From Spirochaeta sp. LUC14_002_19_P3 (GTDB taxonomy: Bacteria; Spirochaetota; Spirochaetia; DSM-2461), in contig MUIB01000116.1 of the NCBI GenBank assembly GCA_002084135.1, forward strand, positions 1-37,359: DNA of 37,359 bases, read 5' to 3'. Each line of letters opens with the position of its first letter. Positions within the stretch are counted from its first letter, which is position 1. The position numbers and the translations under genes were made by a program. Under the pieces are notes generated by a model. The model had not been told where the DNA came from. It worked only from the letters and a program-made list of their open reading frames with translations, and ran no database searches. Positions 1 through 12,277 of this stretch are shown here, piece by piece.

Positions 1-3000
1 ACCATACTCCAATCCTCAGTCTCAATAGCCTTCGCATACGCAAAGGCTTCCAACGCATTCCGTTCATTCAAACTTTTAAGCCCATAGGCCGCAGCAAGCT
101 GAGTCGCTACATTCATATGCCCAAAACTCGCTCTGGCCGTTTCCATGGCCTGTCCCAAATCCTGCACTTCAATGCCATCCCTATAGGCCTCATGTGCCAA
201 CAACACCGCCATATCAAGATTACTCTTTCCCGAAGCATTCAAATCCATGTAGCGCACACCATTAGACAAAACAGTATGGCCGTCATAATCCTGCCCCGTT
301 CCGATACGCACCTTCACCTTGCCCGAAATAATATCATCATAGGTATCCCGCAGTGTCGTATCCTCTTTGTCAAGGCCCATGGCCGAATAGAGCGTTCGCA
401 TTCCCTCGGTAATATCCTCATCAAGCTCAGCCTTCCTTATCTCATTGTTCACCTGGTAAGCCTCAATGCCCTTCATGGCCGATGCTATTGTCCCAATGCC
501 GAAATTATGTCCCCCGCGTCCTATGCCCAAACTGGAGCCGTCTTTGCTCAGTCTCAGTTCCAACAGACCCACATTCGTTTTGGAAAAGTCCCCCAATAAG
601 CCGGGTTTTTGCTTTGAACCCATAAAGAAGTCCGAAAAGCTCAGTATATTCAATGTTGTACTTCCAGTCAATGCATATTCAAAGCCTGCTGTTACCGTTG
701 TGCCTATCAGGTTATTCAATAACTTGCCATTATCCAGAACATCTCCCACAAAGCCGGTAAGATTAACCTTGTCCAGGCCGAACTGCACAAAACTTCCTGC
801 CATGCTGGCCGCAATGTTGCCAAGATTAATGCCCTTGACAAAGGCTTCCCCATCGAAGGAAATACCGTTGCCGTCAAACCTCACCGCATTAATGGTGCTC
901 GTTGCTACCTGGCTCCCCAGGGCACGAACTCCCACTAGAGCGGTTTTGGCTATTACTCTTGCTTTATCAAATACACCCGCGCCAATTGCTCCTATAGCAC
1001 TTGAAGCAATAGCCGAAAGGGCCTTTTTCCCAAAGCTCTCCAGAGACTGTTCAACTGTCCGGTAGCCAGTGGCCATATCAAGCGTGGTAAAGAGTAAATC
1101 ATCAGAAAGATTGATACCCACTGAAAGTGCTATAAGCCCGACGGAGACGCCAGAGCCCATTCCAATGGTTGCAACACTTGCAACAACAGCAGCCGCGATA
1201 TCACCTACTGTCCGAAGCGTTATCGCCTTAAACTCCATCCCCCGGTCGTCCCACAGTTTCTTTTCATAGAAGGGCTTGCGCATCTCCGATTCAGCATAGG
1301 CCTCAATCTTCTGATGCTGCATGAGCATTCCGTAAATCCGGCCCTGTTCGCCCGAACCGGGGAAGCGGACATTCTTCCGCCACTGCGATAGGCTAATCTC
1401 CGGATCCGGATTGTTTATAAACACAGGTTCATAGCCTATATGGGCACTTAATTCCCCGCTGTTAATTTCGTTGTACCGAAAATCTACACGCTCACTCTCG
1501 CTTAATGCCTCCCTGGAGGCACGAAGTTTGTCATACGCATCCTTATTCAGATACTCTCCCTCTTTCCCGGTTTTCTGCGAAACATACACACGCTCCCCGT
1601 TCCCGAACACCCGTATCTGTTCATCTTCCAGAGCCTTCATGGCCCTGTCCAAAAGAGCCTGAATGCCCATCGAGCCAAGTTCCTCAATAAGGGCATCGCT
1701 TACCGGAACCGCCTCCATCTTCAAGTCCGGCAGATGCGCATCATAATACTTATAGCCCTCAATAACATGATCCTCATAAGTATTACCCCATAGCGTGGAC
1801 ATTACCAGGGTGTTCTTAATGAAGTTATTTCCCGAACGGCGAAACTGCTTATCGGCAAGCGTCTGCCGTATGCTTTCAGCATAGTCGGCATTGGCATCTG
1901 CCACACTCTTGTCCAGGCCTGCTACGGCCTCATCCAGAGTGTCCAGCATCCGTTCATACTGCACCAGGGCCATTCGTGCTGCAAGCTCCTCATTCTCTGC
2001 GGTCTGGAACTCCCGTATCTTGTTCAGCATCTCCCCTGTTACATAGGGGTTCCGTCCCAAACTGGTAAGAATCTTTGTCTCAATGGCTCCGATACCGTCT
2101 TCCAGTCCCTTGGCATTTTCCAGCAGGGTGGAGAGCATGGTTCGGTTAAGAATTCTTCCCATGAAGTTGTCTAAATCGGGTAAAGCAGGGAGGTCGGGCA
2201 TAATGAAGCGGCTGGTTTCGGCTATGGCTTCCTTTGCGGACATGCCCACGCGGGTTAGGATATCTTCGTCTCCAACATGCACGGCCTGTTCGGTTATATC
2301 CGATACCCACTGGTTCTTTTTGGTCAGGAAATTTTCATACTGCAAGTCCCAGGCCTTCACGCCGTCCTGTAAGGTTTTCTGAAAATCCTTCTGCCACTGA
2401 ACATGTTCCTTATTCATCTTTATCTCGGCCAGCTTCCACTCAATATTTCCCCGTGCAAGCATGGCTGTCATTTGGTTCTGCCAGGTTTTATGGCGTCTGT
2501 CTCCCTCGGCTATGAGGAGGTCCATTTCCTTGTCGCGCACGCTCTGGTAGGCTGTCATGCGGGCGTTCAGGTATGCCTTTAGTTCCTCCATCATTTTGGG
2601 AAGCTGCTGGCTGGAGCCCAGCTCCACCATCTGGGCGCTGCCGGACTTCAGCGTTTCAAAAAGGGAGCTGTCCTGCTTCCATTTATCGCCCAGCACATCC
2701 CGCGCATTGTACAGGGGGGAGTTCCAGGCATTCGCTGCCGCATTAGCATAGCGCTCTCCGGCGCGGTAGGCTTCGAGCAGCATCCCGAACATATCCGCAC
2801 CTTGCGCAAACACCGCATCATCCGGTGAGTTCGCGTAAGTATCCATTATCTCCAGCAGATTCTTCTGAAGCAGAAAATTCATCTCCCCTCTTCGTTCAAG
2901 AGTGCTTAAATGACCCCGGATGTGGGCGGCCAGGGTGTTCCGGGTTTTCTCATCGCCTGTAGTCTGCCAGTCGGCAAGTACACTCTCTCCAGCGTTCATA

Positions 3001-6000
3001 TTATATCCCGAAGCCGGAAGTATTCCATGAGTGAGAAATTCGTCCTGTGCCTTAATAAATTCCTCTCTTTTCTCCTCTTGCTGCCTGGCAATGCCCTTCT
3101 TGCCGAACTGGTCTGGGTCCTCCCGGTAGAGATACCGATCAAGCTCCTCTTCCGCAGCTGTCCGCTGGTCTGTGGCTTTTTGAAGAAGTCTCTCCAGTAG
3201 CTGGGGCAGAGTCCGCACCTGACTGAGTTCTTTGGCAGAAATGGCATTCTTAAGCGTATTGAACCGCGTATTCAAGAGTCCTATCCAATTAGAGGGTGTA
3301 TAGTTGATATTCAGCAAATTCGCTATTTCTTTCGCTTGATATCCAGGGCTTTGTCTGAGTGTCAGATCCAATGCTCTCAACAGCTCATTAAAATCAGGGT
3401 TGTCGCTGCCTTTCGCCGTCTTGATATTCGATTCATACTGAGCCTCAATGGCGTATAAGTCTTTATACTCTGTAAGTGCTCCCATAAATAGATCTCTTTG
3501 GTCCGCATATTCCGAACCATAATTATCTCTTGCATTGGCTACTCTGTTTGCTGCCTTTCGGTGCCAAAACCAGTTCCATGCGTTTATTCCATGAACCGTG
3601 ACGGTATGAGCTTTATTCTGTGCTTTGTTATTCCCCATTTCCTTGAAGCTGAAGCCATTTTCCCCAACAAGGTCGGCAATACAGGCCAGCTTGAAGAATT
3701 GATAGGTGTTATCTTTAACGATAGAGGCGGAACTCCTCCCCAAATCATTATATCCTCTTGGAGCCTCCGCTTCAAAAATCAAGTGAATTATGTGATTCCA
3801 ATTATGTTTATGGGGATAATTTCCATAAGATATATCCATAAAGGCAGCGTAAGCCGGTCTTGAGCCTTCAGACATGGAGTAAGCCATCATTTCATATAGA
3901 ACGGCTTCAAACCACTGGTCAATTTGGTTTTTGTCCAATGGCCTCATTGTTAAAAGAAGGTTGTGAAGCAAATCCTCATAGGTTTCATATTTCTCGTTCG
4001 GAGGCTTCTTACCGTCTGTGCCGAAAAACTGGGCAAGCCGTGTACTTCTATCCGCATCGTTGCGCATTGAATCTTTATTGTTATCAAAGGTTATAATGGC
4101 CCGGCCATTGCTGTCCCATTTAATATCAAGAGTTTGAAGATAACGCTGCCGAGTTGGAAAATTGTTCTGAGTTATTCCCACTGTTCCTTTAAGCCCCTTA
4201 TCACTACTAACATGAGTGGTGTTAGATAGCTTCCTCAAGGCCGCCTCCCTCTTCTCCTTAGCCTTATCATACTCCCCAAGCGTCTTCTCGCGGTACTCCG
4301 CCAGCATTCCTTCCAGCCGCGTTAGGGCAATTTCATTCTTTTTGGCCGTTTTCACTTTTTCCGTTAAACTGCGGTACTTCCAATCCGTCTCGGCCAGGGT
4401 TTTAGGGTTCCTGGAATAGGCATTCTTCAGCACCTCTACCACATTTTGGGCCCGCCTGTACTCATCCTCCGCCTCAGCCAGAATCTTCTCCGGGCGGATC
4501 GCGTCTATCTGAGCCTGAAACTCTTTCAGTTCCACTTGCATTTCGTCATCCAAATCATGGTAGTCCCCGGCAATGTCGCGGCCCAGATACAGATGGTAAC
4601 TCACCGCATAGTCCCGTATGGCCTTGGCCGAACGGTAATTCAGCTTCGCGTTCTCCAAGTCCCGGATTTTCTCAAGGGCAGTCTCGTAGGCCTTGGCATA
4701 CAGGTACTCCGCTTCCCGGTAGGTATATTCGCTTTTCCCCGCGGCGGGGGCACTGTTCACCTTGCGGCCAATCAGCTCCGCCCACTCCTTCTGTACCTGC
4801 TCTATGTCCTCTTTCACCGCCGTCACCGCTTTCCGTGCATCCTGCAGGGCCTTCGAGTTCGCCGCATTTCCCGACGATGCCAGGTAATCGGCCACACTCT
4901 TTCCGAACGTGGCAATTTTCGCTTTTATTCCCGCTGCCCCCTCCTCCTCTTGCAGCCGGATCGTCTTCTTCTTATTGAGTGCCTCAGTCAATGCCGGGTT
5001 CATCGTCAGAGGAGCGAGGTCTTCAAGTGCTTTTAGAGCATCCTGGGTGCTCAGCGCATTTGCATCCCCGCTGAAGGCCGCCGCCCAGTTGTGGTAAGAT
5101 TGCAGTGCCTCAGACGAAAACTGCTCCTGCTCCCAGGTCTCAAGAACTCCCGCAAGTGCCGTATTCGCCCCATTGAGCAAATTCCAGGTTTCCAGAACAT
5201 CTGCCATCTGCTTATTGAAAGCACGGTACAGCACATCTGCCTCATCCTTCGTCTCCACGTCCGCCAATTTTGCCGCTGGAACAATCTTTGTTCCAGCCGA
5301 ACTCGCATCGCTCCATTCTTCCCCATCCTTAAGCCGCAAAAACTCCTTGTCCAGGTACAGCCGCCAGGCACCGGGTGCCAAAGCAGCCTTCCGCTTGGCG
5401 TAAGAGAGCCTCTGCTCAGTGGCCCGCAGGGCATCGCCCCGTGCATTCAAGGCTTCCTGAATGCTCTGGCCAAGTTTTTCCGCATAGCTTCCCGCAACCG
5501 AATGGAAATATTTTTGCTTCCCCCGGAGGAACTCCGCCGTCCAGCTCCTTTTCTCACTGTCGCTGCTCAAAACACCCCTTATTGGGTTTATGAAAAAACC
5601 ATCCTCCCAAATCGAAGCAGCCGCACCCCGCGCGATATTTTCATCTATTCCGGCATCTATCAGGTAGTGAAAAAAATCACCGTCTTTCGCGGAAATATAC
5701 TGGCGCATGGCATTCAGCATCGCGATAAAACTATCCAGCTTTGTTTGGGCGGCTGCGGAAAGGGCAAAACCCGCCAGTACCGCATCCGCCGTTTTCCGCT
5801 CATAAGCCGCCTTTTTCAGATAGTGCAGTACCGCTCTCTCATCCGTTTTGTAGCCCTGCAAGTTCTGCTTTAAGGTATCCTCAGGGCTTAAGGAGGCAGA
5901 ACTACCAGGAGCTGTCCAGGCACCGGTTAGCACAGCCGTTAAGTCTTCAAAAGACAGGCTGTTCATCCGGGCAAAAAGAGTCTCTTTCTCATAAGCCGCA

Positions 6001-9000
6001 TCATTCCCGGCAATGCCCCGCGCCCCTTCAATCCTTTCCCGTGCAAGCACCTTGGCCCGGTCAAAATAATTTTTCAGTTTTAACCCCGCCTCATTATCCT
6101 CATCGTCCAGCTCCAAAACATCCAGAATATGCGTCATGGCATCATTCCAGGGTTCATCCTCGCCCAGGTTGGCATCCGGTGCCATACTGGCCGCCAGTTC
6201 CCCCGCCAGCGTGGAGATGAGTATGGTCTCGCTCTTCGTATCCGATTCGTCAATCAATAGCGCGTAAGCCAGTTTCGTCAGCGGCTCGGACACACTGTTC
6301 ATCGCCTCAAGCCATTCATAATCTGCCTTAAGGGCATCCTGTCCCTCTTCCAGCTTAACAAATCCGCTTTCTATGTCCGCCTTGGTCAGGCCGCCGCTTA
6401 AAGCACGGCTTTTCACCAGAAAATAATTCTCCAGCTGCCGCTGCCAACGGTAAAGCTCCTCCCTCAGGGCCTCCGGCCCCGTCGACTGGAACCCGCTGAG
6501 TTTATCCCGCAGGTTTGCAAGCCAGTCCAACACCTCATCCTCACGGACAAACCCCAGCTCATCCCAAAGAGTCATCGCATTCCTAAACTGCCAGCTCCCG
6601 GAGGATTCTTCCGCTAAACCGGCATCCCTTAGCATGCCCCGCAGCCCGGCAATGGCCTCCTGGCGAAACATGTCCCGTCCGGCAATCGAAAGGCTGCCAA
6701 AGGTGTCCCAAACCTGGCCTGCTTTCACCGCCTGGTCGAAGGTGCTCCATTCATCAGCGAGAAACATGGAGCCGTAGTCGCGGCCATTGAAGCTAAACAC
6801 ACTGCCGTTATTCACATAGCTGGAAGCCAGGGCATTATTCTGGATCAGCGGGCGCAGGGCTTCTGCCAGAGAGTCAAAGTCGGTTTTACCAGCTATGGCA
6901 TTTTCCAGCTCTTCAAGGGTTTTAATGTCCGCATCCAGCTTCGCGGCAAATGTTCCGGTGTTATAGGTTTTTGCATAAAGCCAACCAAGAACTGCTTTTT
7001 CATCGCTAAAGTCATCCGGTTTTGGCAAGCTGAAATCCTTCATCTCCTTTCCGCTGTTCAGCCACTGCGTGAGTGCATCCCGCACTTCTGTCAGGGTCTG
7101 TTTATCCCGGCTTATCCGGTTGGCTATGAATTTCGCACGGGCCTGCTGGTTGTGCTCTTCCAGCTTGGCGGCTATGTCATCCGAACTATAAGAGGAAGCG
7201 TCCGAAATGCCCGCCCAGGTGAGCGGATTCTCATCGCTTAACAGCTTGAGCTGATTCAACATTAGCTCAAGCTCTCCCCGATAGCGGCGCAACAGCCCCG
7301 CCGTTATGCTGTGAATCTCCAGGCGCAGCCGTGCCTGTGTCTCGGGGTCGATGGAAGTACCGGCCTGATTCACGAAAGACTCTATGGTCTTATACGCGCT
7401 GTCCTTCACGCTCAAATTCCAGGCATCTTTCAAGTCGCTCAGGAAATCGGCACGGAAACCGCCCGCGCCAAGATCAGTCTGATCAAAGTGCCAGTTCAAA
7501 GCCGTGTTATAGCGGGTAAGCAATGCCTTCAGAGATAACACCCCATTCTCCGGATCGCCTAGAACCAGATTCCGGGCAATGTCCGCGCTACTCTTCAGAA
7601 AGCCTTTCCCGGCTTCATTTTTCACGGCTTCAAGGTAGGCGTTTAAATTATCCGCCGCACGCTCCGCCGCCTGAGGCTGATAGCTCCCGTCCAGTCCCAA
7701 AAGCTGGGCATAGTAATCGCGAAGCTGCTCCTGAAAGTAGTCCACAGAATCAAGCTCTATAAGCAGTATTTGATTCTGGTAAGCCTGTTGCGCTGTTTCC
7801 AGCTCCTTTTTCAGTGTGGACAGCTTTTCCTGCACCTCTGCAATCTTCCCGCTGTTGTCCGTTAGGGCCTTATTGGCCGCATTGAGTGCCTTCACCGCCT
7901 CCTCGTAATCGGCCAGAGCCTCGTTGTAATCGGTAAGCGCACTATCATAAGCCATTTCGCTTTCCCTTCGCTTGTCTGCCTGCTCCTCACGGGGTAAGTT
8001 GGCGTTCTCCTCCGCATAGTCGGCGGCGGCTTGGGCAACATCCCGCTCCTTTTTCCAGAAGTTAGCCACGGCCTGCGCCTTCAAGAGTTCTACCTGGTAC
8101 TCGTCCAGAAAGAATTCCTGCCATCTGCCGTCCTCAATATTAACGGCATTCGTCCCCTTAATGCCGTTCTCGTCCAAGCCACTCTCTCCGAACAGCGTAA
8201 TGTTGTAGGTATTATAAAGTTCCTTGTAGGCATCTTCCGCATAGTTTTTGTATGTGGTGTAGATTTTTTCCAGCCAGTAGCGGGCCTGCTCGGCGTCTTT
8301 GTCTGTGGAAGCCATGGGATCAATTATACCCCAACGAACAAGTATATTATTATTATATGTATCACGACGATGTGTATATTCTGTTATTTCCTTATCATAT
8401 AGCTTCCTCATCCCATTTAAATCATTCGGCACATCTTCAAGCTCCAGGGTGCTCTTCGGATTCACCTTGTTCAGCCAGTAGGCAAAATTCTCCCGTGCCG
8501 TGCTCATCATGTTCAAAGACTGTCCCAGCATATCCACCAGGGCATTAACGCGCTCCAGCATTGAGCCCTCACGGCTTAAAGCATTCTCCGCCATCTCCGC
8601 TTTCGCCGCATCCAGAGCATTGCTTAGCTCCCGCTTCTCATCCTCCCACAAGGTTTCTCCCCGGGTTTTTATGCTGTCAAAATCAGCCAGCCACTGAACC
8701 CGGGCCGCTTCCAAATCCTTAAAGGCCTGCTCCCAGTCCTTCACACCCTGCTCTAAATCATTCCCCGCCCGCGCTTCCCATGCCGCGCGGTTTTTCACCA
8801 TGGCATTCTGCGCGTCATCCCAGAGAGCCATGCCCTTCTCCAGCTCCTCCTTGAAACTCTCCCGCCAGCGTTCAGCATCAATCTTGCCATCTGCAACATT
8901 CGGGTCTTGAGCATCCGTTTCCAAATCGTTTTTCAGTCGCTCCAGCCCCCCCGCAATTTTATTCTGTATTCCGCTAACCCTTTGCCTGGCTTCGGAAGCC

Positions 9001-9746
9001 GTCTCCAAACCAAGATTCGGATCCGGCTTTTCAATATTCTGCAGCCGGCTATGCACCATCGCCGATTCGGCCAGATGCGTCATCTTCGCCAGCTCACGCG
9101 CCCTTGCCTTCTTCAAGGCATCCAGAGTCCCGGCGCGGTACTGCTCCAGGAACAGCTTCTCCTCATCCCCCGCCTGCGCTAAAAGCTCCGAGTACGCCGT
9201 CTCCACACCCCCATGCCAGGCATTCAAATACGTGGCCGCCTGCCCTTCCCAATCGCGCCTAAAAACCGCCTTATCGGCATCAATCGCAGCCCTATCGCTA
9301 ACCCTGGCCTTATAGCCATTCCCATCCCTAAGAAAGTCCCCCCCGGCATCCGTCTCATAAGCCAATTTGGAAGCCGCCCCGTTCACCGAAGTCCAATACT
9401 CCAAAAGCCCATCCCCAAAAGTCCGTTCACTGAACTTCCGCACCATCCATTTGGCCATCCACTCGCTCAGCCGCTCCTCAAGAGCCACCAGCGTATCGGC
9501 CTTCTTCTCCGCCAGCGCGTCAGCATCACGGAAAACAAGAATGGCCGCCGCCTCCCATTCCGCCAGCACCGTGTCTAGCCCCGCCCGCGCAATCCGCAGC
9601 CACTTGTCCCTGTCCTGTGCAGCGGATGCCCGATCGAGATACTTCTCAAAAAGTGCATTATCGAACGATGGAGCCGATTCCGGCCAAACAAAGCCGGTTA
9701 AGCACAGAAAAAACGCAGCAAGTGCTATTCGCCTGAAAATAAACAT
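1..9746 (-). CDS. Giant exported helical protein, at least 3,248 residues, C-terminus beyond the window
   Basis: The frame is open from an ATG at 9746 to the left edge with no stop. A strong Shine-Dalgarno (AGGAGGG, 9752-9758) lies 5 nt before the ATG. The N-terminus looks like a signal peptide: Arg-Arg at residues 5-6, a hydrophobic core at 7-20, then WPES. Most of the chain is charged, Ala/Glu/Leu/Lys-rich and helical, with an obvious coiled coil near residues 606-656. Tryptophans fall at 294, 309, 323, 338, 352 and 367, and again at 2422, 2437, 2451, 2466 and 2480, spaced 14 and 15 in turn. Residues about 1850-2150 are richer in Asn, His and aromatics and look globular. Residues about 2843-2940 form a Gly/Ala-rich hydrophobic block, followed by Gly-rich sequence and a motif LLAHEAYRDG (His3185). 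The layout recalls large spirochaetal proteins of the TIGR04388 kind and polymorphic toxins; that is inference. An export or surface role is likely, the function unknown. Confidence 0.93.
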   Translation of the reverse strand, partial: MFIFRRIALAAFFLCLTGFVWPESAPSFDNALFEKYLDRASAAQDRDKWLRIARAGLDTVLAEWEAAAILVFRDADALAEKKADTLVALEERLSEWMAKWMVRKFSERTFGDGLLEYWTSVNGAASKLAYETDAGGDFLRDGNGYKARVSDRAAIDADKAVFRRDWEGQAATYLNAWHGGVETAYSELLAQAGDEEKLFLEQYRAGTLDALKKARARELAKMTHLAESAMVHSRLQNIEKPDPNLGLETASEARQRVSGIQNKIAGGLERLKNDLETDAQDPNVADGKIDAERWRESFKEELEKGMALWDDAQNAMVKNRAAWEARAGNDLEQGVKDWEQAFKDLEAARVQWLADFDSIKTRGETLWEDEKRELSNALDAAKAEMAENALSREGSMLERVNALVDMLGQSLNMMSTARENFAYWLNKVNPKSTLELEDVPNDLNGMRKLYDKEITEYTHRRDTYNNNILVRWGIIDPMASTDKDAEQARYWLEKIYTTYKNYAEDAYKELYNTYNITLFGESGLDENGIKGTNAVNIEDGRWQEFFLDEYQVELLKAQAVANFWKKERDVAQAAADYAEENANLPREEQADKRRESEMAYDSALTDYNEALADYEEAVKALNAANKALTDNSGKIAEVQEKLSTLKKELETAQQAYQNQILLIELDSVDYFQEQLRDYYAQLLGLDGSYQPQAAERAADNLNAYLEAVKNEAGKGFLKSSADIARNLVLGDPENGVLSLKALLTRYNTALNWHFDQTDLGAGGFRADFLSDLKDAWNLSVKDSAYKTIESFVNQAGTSIDPETQARLRLEIHSITAGLLRRYRGELELMLNQLKLLSDENPLTWAGISDASSYSSDDIAAKLEEHNQQARAKFIANRISRDKQTLTEVRDALTQWLNSGKEMKDFSLPKPDDFSDEKAVLGWLYAKTYNTGTFAAKLDADIKTLEELENAIAGKTDFDSLAEALRPLIQNNALASSYVNNGSVFSFNGRDYGSMFLADEWSTFDQAVKAGQVWDTFGSLSIAGRDMFRQEAIAGLRGMLRDAGLAEESSGSWQFRNAMTLWDELGFVREDEVLDWLANLRDKLSGFQSTGPEALREELYRWQRQLENYFLVKSRALSGGLTKADIESGFVKLEEGQDALKADYEWLEAMNSVSEPLTKLAYALLIDESDTKSETILISTLAGELAASMAPDANLGEDEPWNDAMTHILDVLELDDEDNEAGLKLKNYFDRAKVLARERIEGARGIAGNDAAYEKETLFARMNSLSFEDLTAVLTGAWTAPGSSASLSPEDTLKQNLQGYKTDERAVLHYLKKAAYERKTADAVLAGFALSAAAQTKLDSFIAMLNAMRQYISAKDGDFFHYLIDAGIDENIARGAAASIWEDGFFINPIRGVLSSDSEKRSWTAEFLRGKQKYFHSVAGSYAEKLGQSIQEALNARGDALRATEQRLSYAKRKAALAPGAWRLYLDKEFLRLKDGEEWSDASSAGTKIVPAAKLADVETKDEADVLYRAFNKQMADVLETWNLLNGANTALAGVLETWEQEQFSSEALQSYHNWAAAFSGDANALSTQDALKALEDLAPLTMNPALTEALNKKKTIRLQEEEGAAGIKAKIATFGKSVADYLASSGNAANSKALQDARKAVTAVKEDIEQVQKEWAELIGRKVNSAPAAGKSEYTYREAEYLYAKAYETALEKIRDLENAKLNYRSAKAIRDYAVSYHLYLGRDIAGDYHDLDDEMQVELKEFQAQIDAIRPEKILAEAEDEYRRAQNVVEVLKNAYSRNPKTLAETDWKYRSLTEKVKTAKKNEIALTRLEGMLAEYREKTLGEYDKAKEKREAALRKLSNTTHVSSDKGLKGTVGITQNNFPTRQRYLQTLDIKWDSNGRAIITFDNNKDSMRNDADRSTRLAQFFGTDGKKPPNEKYETYEDLLHNLLLTMRPLDKNQIDQWFEAVLYEMMAYSMSEGSRPAYAAFMDISYGNYPHKHNWNHIIHLIFEAEAPRGYNDLGRSSASIVKDNTYQFFKLACIADLVGENGFSFKEMGNNKAQNKAHTVTVHGINAWNWFWHRKAANRVANARDNYGSEYADQRDLFMGALTEYKDLYAIEAQYESNIKTAKGSDNPDFNELLRALDLTLRQSPGYQAKEIANLLNINYTPSNWIGLLNTRFNTLKNAISAKELSQVRTLPQLLERLLQKATDQRTAAEEELDRYLYREDPDQFGKKGIARQQEEKREEFIKAQDEFLTHGILPASGYNMNAGESVLADWQTTGDEKTRNTLAAHIRGHLSTLERRGEMNFLLQKNLLEIMDTYANSPDDAVFAQGADMFGMLLEAYRAGERYANAAANAWNSPLYNARDVLGDKWKQDSSLFETLKSGSAQMVELGSSQQLPKMMEELKAYLNARMTAYQSVRDKEMDLLIAEGDRRHKTWQNQMTAMLARGNIEWKLAEIKMNKEHVQWQKDFQKTLQDGVKAWDLQYENFLTKKNQWVSDITEQAVHVGDEDILTRVGMSAKEAIAETSRFIMPDLPALPDLDNFMGRILNRTMLSTLLENAKGLEDGIGAIETKILTSLGRNPYVTGEMLNKIREFQTAENEELAARMALVQYERMLDTLDEAVAGLDKSVADANADYAESIRQTLADKQFRRSGNNFIKNTLVMSTLWGNTYEDHVIEGYKYYDAHLPDLKMEAVPVSDALIEELGSMGIQALLDRAMKALEDEQIRVFGNGERVYVSQKTGKEGEYLNKDAYDKLRASREALSESERVDFRYNEINSGELSAHIGYEPVFINNPDPEISLSQWRKNVRFPGSGEQGRIYGMLMQHQKIEAYAESEMRKPFYEKKLWDDRGMEFKAITLRTVGDIAAAVVASVATIGMGSGVSVGLIALSVGINLSDDLLFTTLDMATGYRTVEQSLESFGKKALSAIASSAIGAIGAGVFDKARVIAKTALVGVRALGSQVATSTINAVRFDGNGISFDGEAFVKGINLGNIAASMAGSFVQFGLDKVNLTGFVGDVLDNGKLLNNLIGTTVTAGFEYALTGSTTLNILSFSDFFMGSKQKPGLLGDFSKTNVGLLELRLSKDGSSLGIGRGGHNFGIGTIASAMKGIEAYQVNNEIRKAELDEDITEGMRTLYSAMGLDKEDTTLRDTYDDIISGKVKVRIGTGQDYDGHTVLSNGVRYMDLNASGKSNLDMAVLLAHEAYRDGIEVQDLGQAMETARASFGHMNVATQLAAAYGLKSLNERNALEAFAYAKAIETEDWSM

Positions 9747-10225
9747 GGATACCCTCCTGCCATGAAATTCGAAAAAAGACAGCTCACAACCCTGCCTGAA
9801 TCGCGTAAATAATGAGAACATAGTTTTCCCTCCTACCTTTTAAAGAAGCCCGCTACCCCCTTCAAAATTCAATGTTTTGAAAAAAAGTTGAGAATTTTTT
9901 CCTTAAAACAGGAAATTGGAGTAAAAATACTTAAATTATGTTTAGGTGTTTTTGAGTTATAACTAAGGATTATAATATACACTAGGGATATAGCATCGGA
10001 AAAAAACAGGGGAGCTTATCCAGCAGGGATACATGCCGGAACCCATCGGCTCAAATCCAGGTTTCGCCACCCACTTCAAAGAGCTGGTGACCTCTGGCGC
10101 TTTCAGGTTCATTCGTGTCGTTAAGGGCAATGCCTGCCTTCAGCGCTCAGCGGCGGAAGGCTCCCTTCCCATGCCTGCCCCTTCTGGCTCTCGCCGTCCC
10201 GGATCATCCAACCCCCAAAATTCAT
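9747..10225. other. Gene-free spacer between the giant gene and cobS
   Basis: The part next to the giant gene (about 9830-9990) is AT-rich and should hold its promoter, but I see no hexamer pair with good spacing on the minus strand. The part from about 10020 to 10225 is GC-richer and contains a short self-complementary stretch (GGAAGG-CTC-CCTTCC near 10155-10169). No T-run follows it in either direction, so it is not a clear terminator. I recognise no RNA gene or conserved protein here. Confidence 0.5.
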
Positions 10226-11515: not shown

Positions 11516-11633
11516 TTAGGAAATTGACGAAGAAATTTTTTGCCGGGCGGCAAAAGCGGTGAGCATTTTGACAACTTAAGGAGCGGCGGAAAAGTTCGAG
11601 TCAAGAACTAAATGGGGGTTTTTAGAGGTGCCC
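11483..11633. repeat. Inverted-end repeat element, copy 1
   Basis: This copy begins GGGTACCTCTAAAAAAC and ends GTTTTTAGAGGTGCCC, so its ends are inverted copies of each other with one or two differences. The interior matches copy 2 (11868-12021) almost base for base over segments such as AGGAAATTGACGAAGAAATT, GGGCGGCAAAAGCGG, GAGCATTTTGACAAC and GCGGAAAAGTTCGAGTCAAG. Relative to copy 2 it has an extra internal element end (TTTAGAGGTGCCC, 11503-11515) near its left side and lacks a 17-bp hairpin insert. It has no coding capacity of note. Size and ends fit a small non-autonomous transposable element (MITE-like) or a REP-like intergenic repeat. Confidence 0.8.
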
Positions 11634-11693
11634 AACTTAAGGAGCGGTGGAAAAGTTCGAGTCAAGAACTCAATGGGGTTTTTAGAGGTGCCC
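11573..11693. repeat. Tandem 61/60-bp duplication of the element's right end
   Basis: The unit starts AACTTAAGGAGCGG, continues through GTTCGAGTCAAGAACT and ends in TTTTTAGAGGTGCCC. It is present twice head to tail, at 11573-11633 (61 bp) and 11634-11693 (60 bp). The copies differ by two substitutions and one G in the run before the T-tract, so the duplication is recent. The second copy ends one base before the stop codon of the small minus-strand gene at 11695. Confidence 0.85.
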
Positions 11694-11694
11694 T

Positions 11695-11811
11695 TTAGAT
11701 TGTTGCGGTAACAATAATTACAACACCGGCAAAGATGAGAATAGCCAGGCCGAACAGCCCCACCGCACTTATCAGTATAATATCAAGCCAGCTTAATTTT
11801 TTTTTCTTCAT
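11695..11811 (-). CDS. 38-residue single-pass membrane peptide
   Basis: An ATG at 11811 opens a 38-codon frame that ends with TAA at 11697-11695. The peptide starts MKKKKLSWLD and then has one long hydrophobic stretch (residues about 11-38) of Ile, Leu, Val, Ala and Gly, as in a single transmembrane helix with a cytoplasmic Lys-rich end. No convincing ribosome site precedes the ATG. A well-spaced promoter (11820-11847) would start transcription at or within a base or two of the ATG, suggesting a leaderless message, and a terminator follows at 11475-11515. I do not recognise a family. Small membrane peptides of this form include toxin-antitoxin toxins and regulators of membrane complexes, but nothing here decides between them. 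Chance coding in this short stretch cannot be ruled out. Confidence 0.5.
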   Translation of the reverse strand: MKKKKLSWLDIILISAVGLFGLAILIFAGVVIIVTATI

Positions 11812-11819
11812 ATACCCAT

Positions 11820-11847
11820 ACTATACCAGAAATCCCGCTGGAATCAA
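11820..11847 (-). promoter_or_regulatory. Sigma-70-type promoter for the 38-residue peptide
   Basis: On the minus strand the -35 element TTGATT (11847-11842) and the -10 element TATAGT (11825-11820) are separated by 16 nt. Each hexamer has four or five of six consensus bases. Only 8 nt lie between the -10 and the ATG at 11811, so the transcript would begin almost at the start codon. Confidence 0.5.
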
Positions 11848-11867
11848 GGGAGCGGCCTCATAATAAA

Positions 11868-12021
11868 GGGTACCTCTAAAAAACGGCTTTAGGAAATTGA
11901 CGAAGAAATTTTTTGTCGGGCGGCAAAAGCGGAGCGTAGCAGGGCTACGTGAGCATTTTGACAACGCAGTAGCGGCGGAAAAGTTCGAGTCAAGAACTAA
12001 ATGGGTTTTTTAGAGGTGCCC
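11868..12021. repeat. Inverted-end repeat element, copy 2 (complete)
   Basis: This is the cleanest copy, 154 bp. The left end GGGTACCTCTAAAAAAC is the inverse of the right end GTTTTTTAGAGGTGCCC over 17 bp with a single mismatch. It is flanked on both sides by TAAA (11864-11867 and 12022-12025), a possible 4-bp target duplication. Inside are a perfect hairpin CGTAGC-AGG-GCTACG and another AGTTC-N7-GAACT. No frame of useful length is present, so movement would need enzymes from elsewhere. Confidence 0.8.
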
Positions 12022-12277
12022 TAAATCAACTTGAAAAAAGTGCTTGCCTCATAACGAAAACCTGCTTAAACAACCAATCTACTCTAAGAATACCACAGAC
12101 GGTATGATAGTGTCAAGTCCTTCACTTCGCATAGATTGAGTATTGACGCAACGGGGGATCAGCTTACCTTATCCGTAAAACTCAACATAAGTATAGTAAT
12201 TAGTCGTCTCTTTCAAATAATTTTCCTTTTTTTTACTCATTTTTATTTCTTTCCCTGTTTTCATTTTTATCTCAATG

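Follow-up and report, generated by a model that had tools for sequence, protein, structure and literature searches.

The window analysed here is the complete 37,359-bp contig C161 of a metagenome-assembled genome (MAG; 1.95 Mb in 177 contigs, 77.5% complete), and one frame on its minus strand, read from position 9746 to position 3, runs through 3,248 codons without a stop up to the contig edge, which raises the question of what kind of protein such a frame encodes and what the protein does. Approximately 165 stops are expected in this frame from the base composition (probability of remaining open, ~1.7e-74), and 54-232 stops are found in each of the other five frames. Because the window is the whole contig, the frame has been truncated by the assembly and not by a stop, and the C-terminus of the protein is missing. 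The start at 9746 is preceded by AGGAGG and directly followed by a typical signal peptide, MFIFRRIALAAFFLCLTGFVWPESA, in which residues 1-22 (9681-9746) include a hydrophobic segment at residues 2-20 with a mean hydropathy of 1.92; a signal-peptide-like N-terminus is also present in most full-length relatives. Uninterrupted frames of similar length are kept in the relatives described below. The main claims of an earlier note on this DNA, i.e. an open frame with a ribosome site and a signal-peptide-like start, maintained by selection and encoding an exported giant of spirochaete type beside housekeeping genes, are therefore upheld: the frame is genuine, and its product is the front part of a giant exported protein of spirochaetes.

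The start itself is less certain than the earlier note had it. A second in-frame ATG at 9821 has its own Shine-Dalgarno sequence (AGGAGG) and would give a frame of 3,273 codons, and because it is the leader adjoining 9821 that has a similar counterpart elsewhere in the genome (see below), either start may be used. Further along the window, the region 12313-37085 contains mraZ, rsmH, murF, mraY, ftsW, ftsQ, ftsA, and ftsZ together with adjoining flagellar genes, with hslVU between them (names assigned by sequence reading). An intergenic repeat is located at 11559-12022; it includes a 61-bp tandem pair (11572-11693), and stretches of 93% identity to it are found at the end of contig C162 of the same genome.

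The encoded protein can be divided into several parts. The signal peptide is followed by a long, charged, Trp-containing, cysteine-poor, and helix-rich stalk (residues ~25-2650; 1797-9674, minus strand), whose helical nature is predicted from the sequence; it is weakly conserved, and its N-terminal block (residues ~27-800) is better conserved than the rest. The conserved core (residues ~2680-3248; 3-1709) shares 24-41% identity with relatives and contains two Gly/Ala-rich hydrophobic segments identified by hydropathy (residues 2854-2872 and 2909-2927; 966-1187), which could form a membrane-interacting region. Near its end, at residues ~3099-3242 (21-452), lies a domain with the motif HEAYR-x-G (HEAYR at 180-194) and a later Glu and His. 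In the motif survey, HEAYR is replaced by HExxH in four relatives; HExxH is absent from the window protein. The AlphaFold model has a mean pLDDT of 48 overall, with values mostly of 55-84 across the last 140-150 residues, and the top Foldseek matches were mostly zincins (IrrE/PprI, oligoendopeptidase F, MATCAP, CapP, and abylysin), at non-significant E values of 0.3-2. This pre-tail domain is likely to be zincin-like, as judged from the model and the motif, and is possibly degenerate. According to the alignment with relatives, the window protein ends at residue 3248, ~20 residues short of the junction at which the C-terminal tail begins.

No Pfam, NCBIfam, PHROG, or PADLOC family matched the window protein over the cut-off, and with no PADLOC match the defence families were rejected. 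The earlier note had named TIGR04388 (Lepto_longest) as the closest family, a proposal that our searches did not bear out. This profile gave no match to the window protein at E<=1, none to any of the 14 members of the giant's family, and none anywhere in the window's genome; sub-threshold scores of 22-29 bits (curated cut-off, 45 bits) were obtained in two relatives only, and profile-profile comparison (hhalign) with an alignment of TIGR04388 proteins gave no meaningful alignment. Membership in TIGR04388 was rejected on these grounds. Larger frames encoding 4,820-4,934 amino acids, with sub-threshold TIGR04388 matches, were noted in Spirochaetota of another class (L073, 3-14804, minus strand; L075, 640-15102, minus strand; and L076, 3784-18558, plus strand).

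Homologues were found in 19 of 61 genomes, including the window's own, by a genome search with residues 349-3248, and the C-terminal core was the best conserved part. A profile of this core is present in 56 of 393 Spirochaetota genomes but in just two of the nine genomes of the window's genus, and a scan of named genomes yielded six named loci. Of the relatives collected, 28 have 2,000 or more residues; these range from 2,161 to 3,890 residues, and most start with a signal-peptide-like sequence. Another giant of 3,078 amino acids (L080, 3155-12391, plus strand) is encoded on a contig filed under a Planctomycetota MAG, reflecting either transfer or mis-binning; its tail resembles that of locus L079. 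In the window's own genome, the start of contig C139 (1-187, L054) encodes a 61-residue core fragment with 37% identity that ends in a stop and adjoins a transposase-like ORF; this is a broken second copy of the giant. Contig C104 carries a 46-bp remnant (8500-8545, L004) that matches the giant gene (window ~1694-1739) at 98% identity and lies in an intergenic region upstream of another HlyD/RND gene pair.

The organization of the complete relatives indicates what is missing from the window. In these proteins, the core leads into a junction of the YDSSGDYWKL-x-DG type, which is followed by a tail of ~250-400 residues, and it is at this junction that close relatives diverge. L065 and L066, from two genomes (G166 and G200) of one genus, share 86% identity over ~2,700 residues, after which their tails, and also the genes that follow the tails, are unrelated; downstream of L066, there is an orphan tail with 97% identity to the L065 tail, accompanied by a partner gene product with 91% identity to the L065 partner. 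In the sister pair L121 and L122, 81% identity extends to residue 2629, and neither the tails nor the partners are related. L118 and L119 provide a weaker example: they are 91% identical over ~2,900 residues and have unrelated partners, but their tail regions are still partly alignable. In the reverse situation, L036 and L043, which belong to different families, have cores with 39% identity and tails with 52% identity. Arrays of orphan tail-plus-partner cassettes occur in several genomes; in the window's genome, such cassettes are represented only by the broken fragment on C139 and the remnant on C104.

Four of the five draft giants that are cut on the 3' side stop close to the junction. Repeats of the junction within a bin were rejected as the cause of these breaks, because searches of bins G020 and G026 revealed no further copy of the contig end; our guess would be mixed strains carrying different tails. 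When the M23 tail of the closest relative was used to search the window's genome for the missing tail, a single weak match was obtained (E=0.0025), in a 305-aa frame that is probably an ordinary M23-like protein, and a profile of the YkuD-like tails (see below) matched nothing in this genome.

The tails are closely associated with the genes that follow them. Of the cassettes whose 3' end is closed (56 in all), 47 are followed on the same strand by a gene at a distance of -60 to +150 bp (median, 2 bp), and by a hydropathy rule 45 of these 47 partners have a signal-peptide-like N-terminus, compared with 104 of 287 other ORFs of the same loci. Pairs of cassettes similar in both tail and partner numbered 35; 10,000 permutations gave a mean of 6.3 and at most 22 such pairs. 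In all of these counts, related sequences are treated as independent. The single-linkage tail clusters T1 and T2 mix several enzyme types and served only to define similarity pairs in this test. In L079, the tail is followed by a gene for an ankyrin-like lipoprotein.

Several tails have recognizable activities. Pfam matches identified an M23 peptidase in several tails of relatives (best, 1.4e-11), M15 in the tail of one relative (2.8e-12), and CHAP in that of another (1.4e-4, slightly below the cut-off), and M23 peptidases of solved structure were matched (best, 1.2e-5) by a profile built from six M23-like tails. In the largest tail type, the resemblance to YkuD consists of the arrangement of an invariant His and Cys and of one weak Pfam match (E=0.03); the profile of this type matched none of the solved structures. 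The M23, M15, CHAP, and YkuD families act on peptidoglycan. At least one tail pair, that of L079 and L080, looks hydrophobic rather than hydrolytic, and the remaining tails, which include several types, contain no confident domain; a structure prediction of one tail from its single sequence gave a pLDDT of 34.

Taken together, these data make it very probable that the window frame is the carrier part of a giant spirochaete polymorphic toxin, most likely one that harms the wall of neighbouring bacteria. The open frame, the signal peptide, the core homology, the tail exchange, the orphan cassettes, the linked partners, and the hydrolase matches are directly shown, the last four in the relatives, and the wall of neighbours is the most likely target because the commonest recognizable tail activities are those of peptidoglycan hydrolases. 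The tail and partner of the window gene lie off the contig and are deduced from the relatives, and we likewise infer toxicity and immunity. In the mechanism proposed, the signal peptide would carry the giant across the inner membrane, and the helical stalk of >2,500 residues, together with the conserved core, would present the C-terminal tail. Release of the tail may be brought about by the zincin-like domain that immediately precedes it, although such self-processing is a guess. The tail, swapped at a fixed junction, would cut the peptidoglycan of neighbouring bacteria, and the exported product of the next gene would protect the producer in its periplasm. The partners are likely to be immunity factors in the producer's periplasm, and exported partners of wall hydrolases would fit the protection of the producer's own wall.

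The most serious competing explanation, which we nevertheless consider unlikely, is a giant envelope protein with a structural or morphogenetic role, whose peptidoglycan-remodelling tails serve the producing cell itself, with tail diversity representing redundancy and the downstream genes encoding regulators or chaperones. The tails do match wall enzymes that cells use on themselves, the protein is exported, and its gene adjoins division and flagellar genes in the window. However, replacement of the tail at a fixed point in close relatives, orphan cassettes, and co-segregation of partner and tail are not expected of a self-serving enzyme, the distribution within the genus is patchy, and the other loci are found in different gene contexts. 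Much less probable still is a secreted protein whose targets are eukaryotic (hosts or predators) and not bacterial. Host-associated species are generally known in this bacterial class and giant exported proteins are able to act on hosts, but the substrate of the hydrolase tails, peptidoglycan, is absent from host cells, the tightly linked exported partners suggest protection from self-harm, and the named relatives are mostly uncultured MAGs. The remotest candidate, a phage or phage-derived tape-measure protein, which the earlier note had named as its refuting case, would account for a large helical protein with hydrophobic segments, and tape-measure proteins can, as is generally known, carry wall hydrolases, but it was rejected given the lack of any PHROG match or adjoining phage genes, the presence of a signal peptide, and the exported partner genes carried by the orphan cassettes.

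The preferred reading, a polymorphic toxin, was listed in the earlier note merely as a profile search and is now supported by the comparative evidence. The sections of Zhang et al. 2012 (PMC3482391) drawn on here describe polymorphic toxin systems as having an export signal, a long conserved carrier, a variable C-terminal toxin domain, an adjacent partner gene, and displaced downstream cassettes, all of which are shared by the giants, and list L,D-peptidase, glucosaminidase, and zincin processing domains among their kinds. The N-terminal export signal is found in the window protein itself; the exchanged C-terminal domain, the toxin-like catalytic domain (M23, M15, or CHAP), and the orphan cassettes are found in its relatives. 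The giants differ from those systems in that their carrier and core match no named family, their recognizable tails are peptidoglycan hydrolases with 45 of 47 partners being signal-peptide-like, and they adjoin an RND/TolC/HlyD operon, the terms 'RND', 'HlyD', and 'TolC' being absent from these sections.

Among individual systems, CdiA/CdiB share tail exchange and orphan cassettes with the giants, but the window protein has no recognizable two-partner-secretion (TPS/haemagglutinin) domain and no Pfam match over the cut-off. MafB shares a lineage-specific conserved N-terminal region after the signal peptide. In the PVC-metallopeptidase toxins, as described in the same sections of PMC3482391, a zincin directly precedes the toxin domain and is proposed to act in self-processing, an arrangement paralleled by the zincin-like domain of the giants; however, most giants have HEAYR instead of HExxH, and the giants have a Sec signal and partner genes. 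TIGR04388 proteins of the Leptospirales are likewise giant exported spirochaete proteins and may represent the same kind of system, because a pre-toxin HINT domain is present in the large Leptospira protein LA_3725 (PMC4751964) and a Hint-like stretch is visible in our alignment of TIGR04388 proteins; the giants differ in having no profile-profile match to this family and a pre-tail domain that is zincin-like and not Hint-like. No paper naming the giant lineage was found in a library of open-access literature, and the novelty of the lineage is therefore provisional.

A second feature shared by many of the loci is the linkage of the giant gene to an RND/TolC/HlyD operon, which we regard as new. 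An ACR_tran (RND) gene is located at most 8.3 kb from the giant in 17 of the 27 giant-bearing genomes, representing nine of 11 families (distances were calculated from positions taken by hand from tables), whereas random placement would give ~0.8 RND-linked genomes, with a maximum of eight in 200,000 trials, the genomes being related and not independent. Genes for TolC-like (OEP), HlyD-like, and Ig-like (Big_5) proteins are also neighbours of giants. In the window's genome, the RND/TolC/HlyD operon is located on contig C162 and does not adjoin the giant gene, but the leader of the giant gene (9822-9900, minus strand) resembles that of the C162 operon, with 74% identity over 77 bp directly before the Shine-Dalgarno sequence (E=1.4e-7 against ~110 kb of the same genome). 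Among 147 loci, the shared leader pattern occurs at just these two places, and a simple promoter scan of the giant's leader found nothing. The similar leaders suggest that the giant gene and the C162 operon are under shared regulation, and the RND/TolC/HlyD system would be the best candidate for delivery.

These results may explain giant spirochaete proteins that lack annotation and to which none of the family libraries used here gives a name. They predict that such giants act in antagonism, with wall-cutting tails that can be swapped and with partner proteins in the periplasm, and the conserved RND-type operon provides a testable candidate for their delivery. A broader possibility, which we put forward tentatively and hold to be rather doubtful, is a weapon system common to spirochaetes, in which giant polymorphic toxins whose tails cut the wall are routed through the periplasm and a tripartite RND pump dedicated to them carries out their export or display; the candidate parts of this pump are two RND proteins, HlyD, TolC, and Ig-like lipoproteins. 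If this were true, RND export would represent a novel way of delivering toxins between bacteria.
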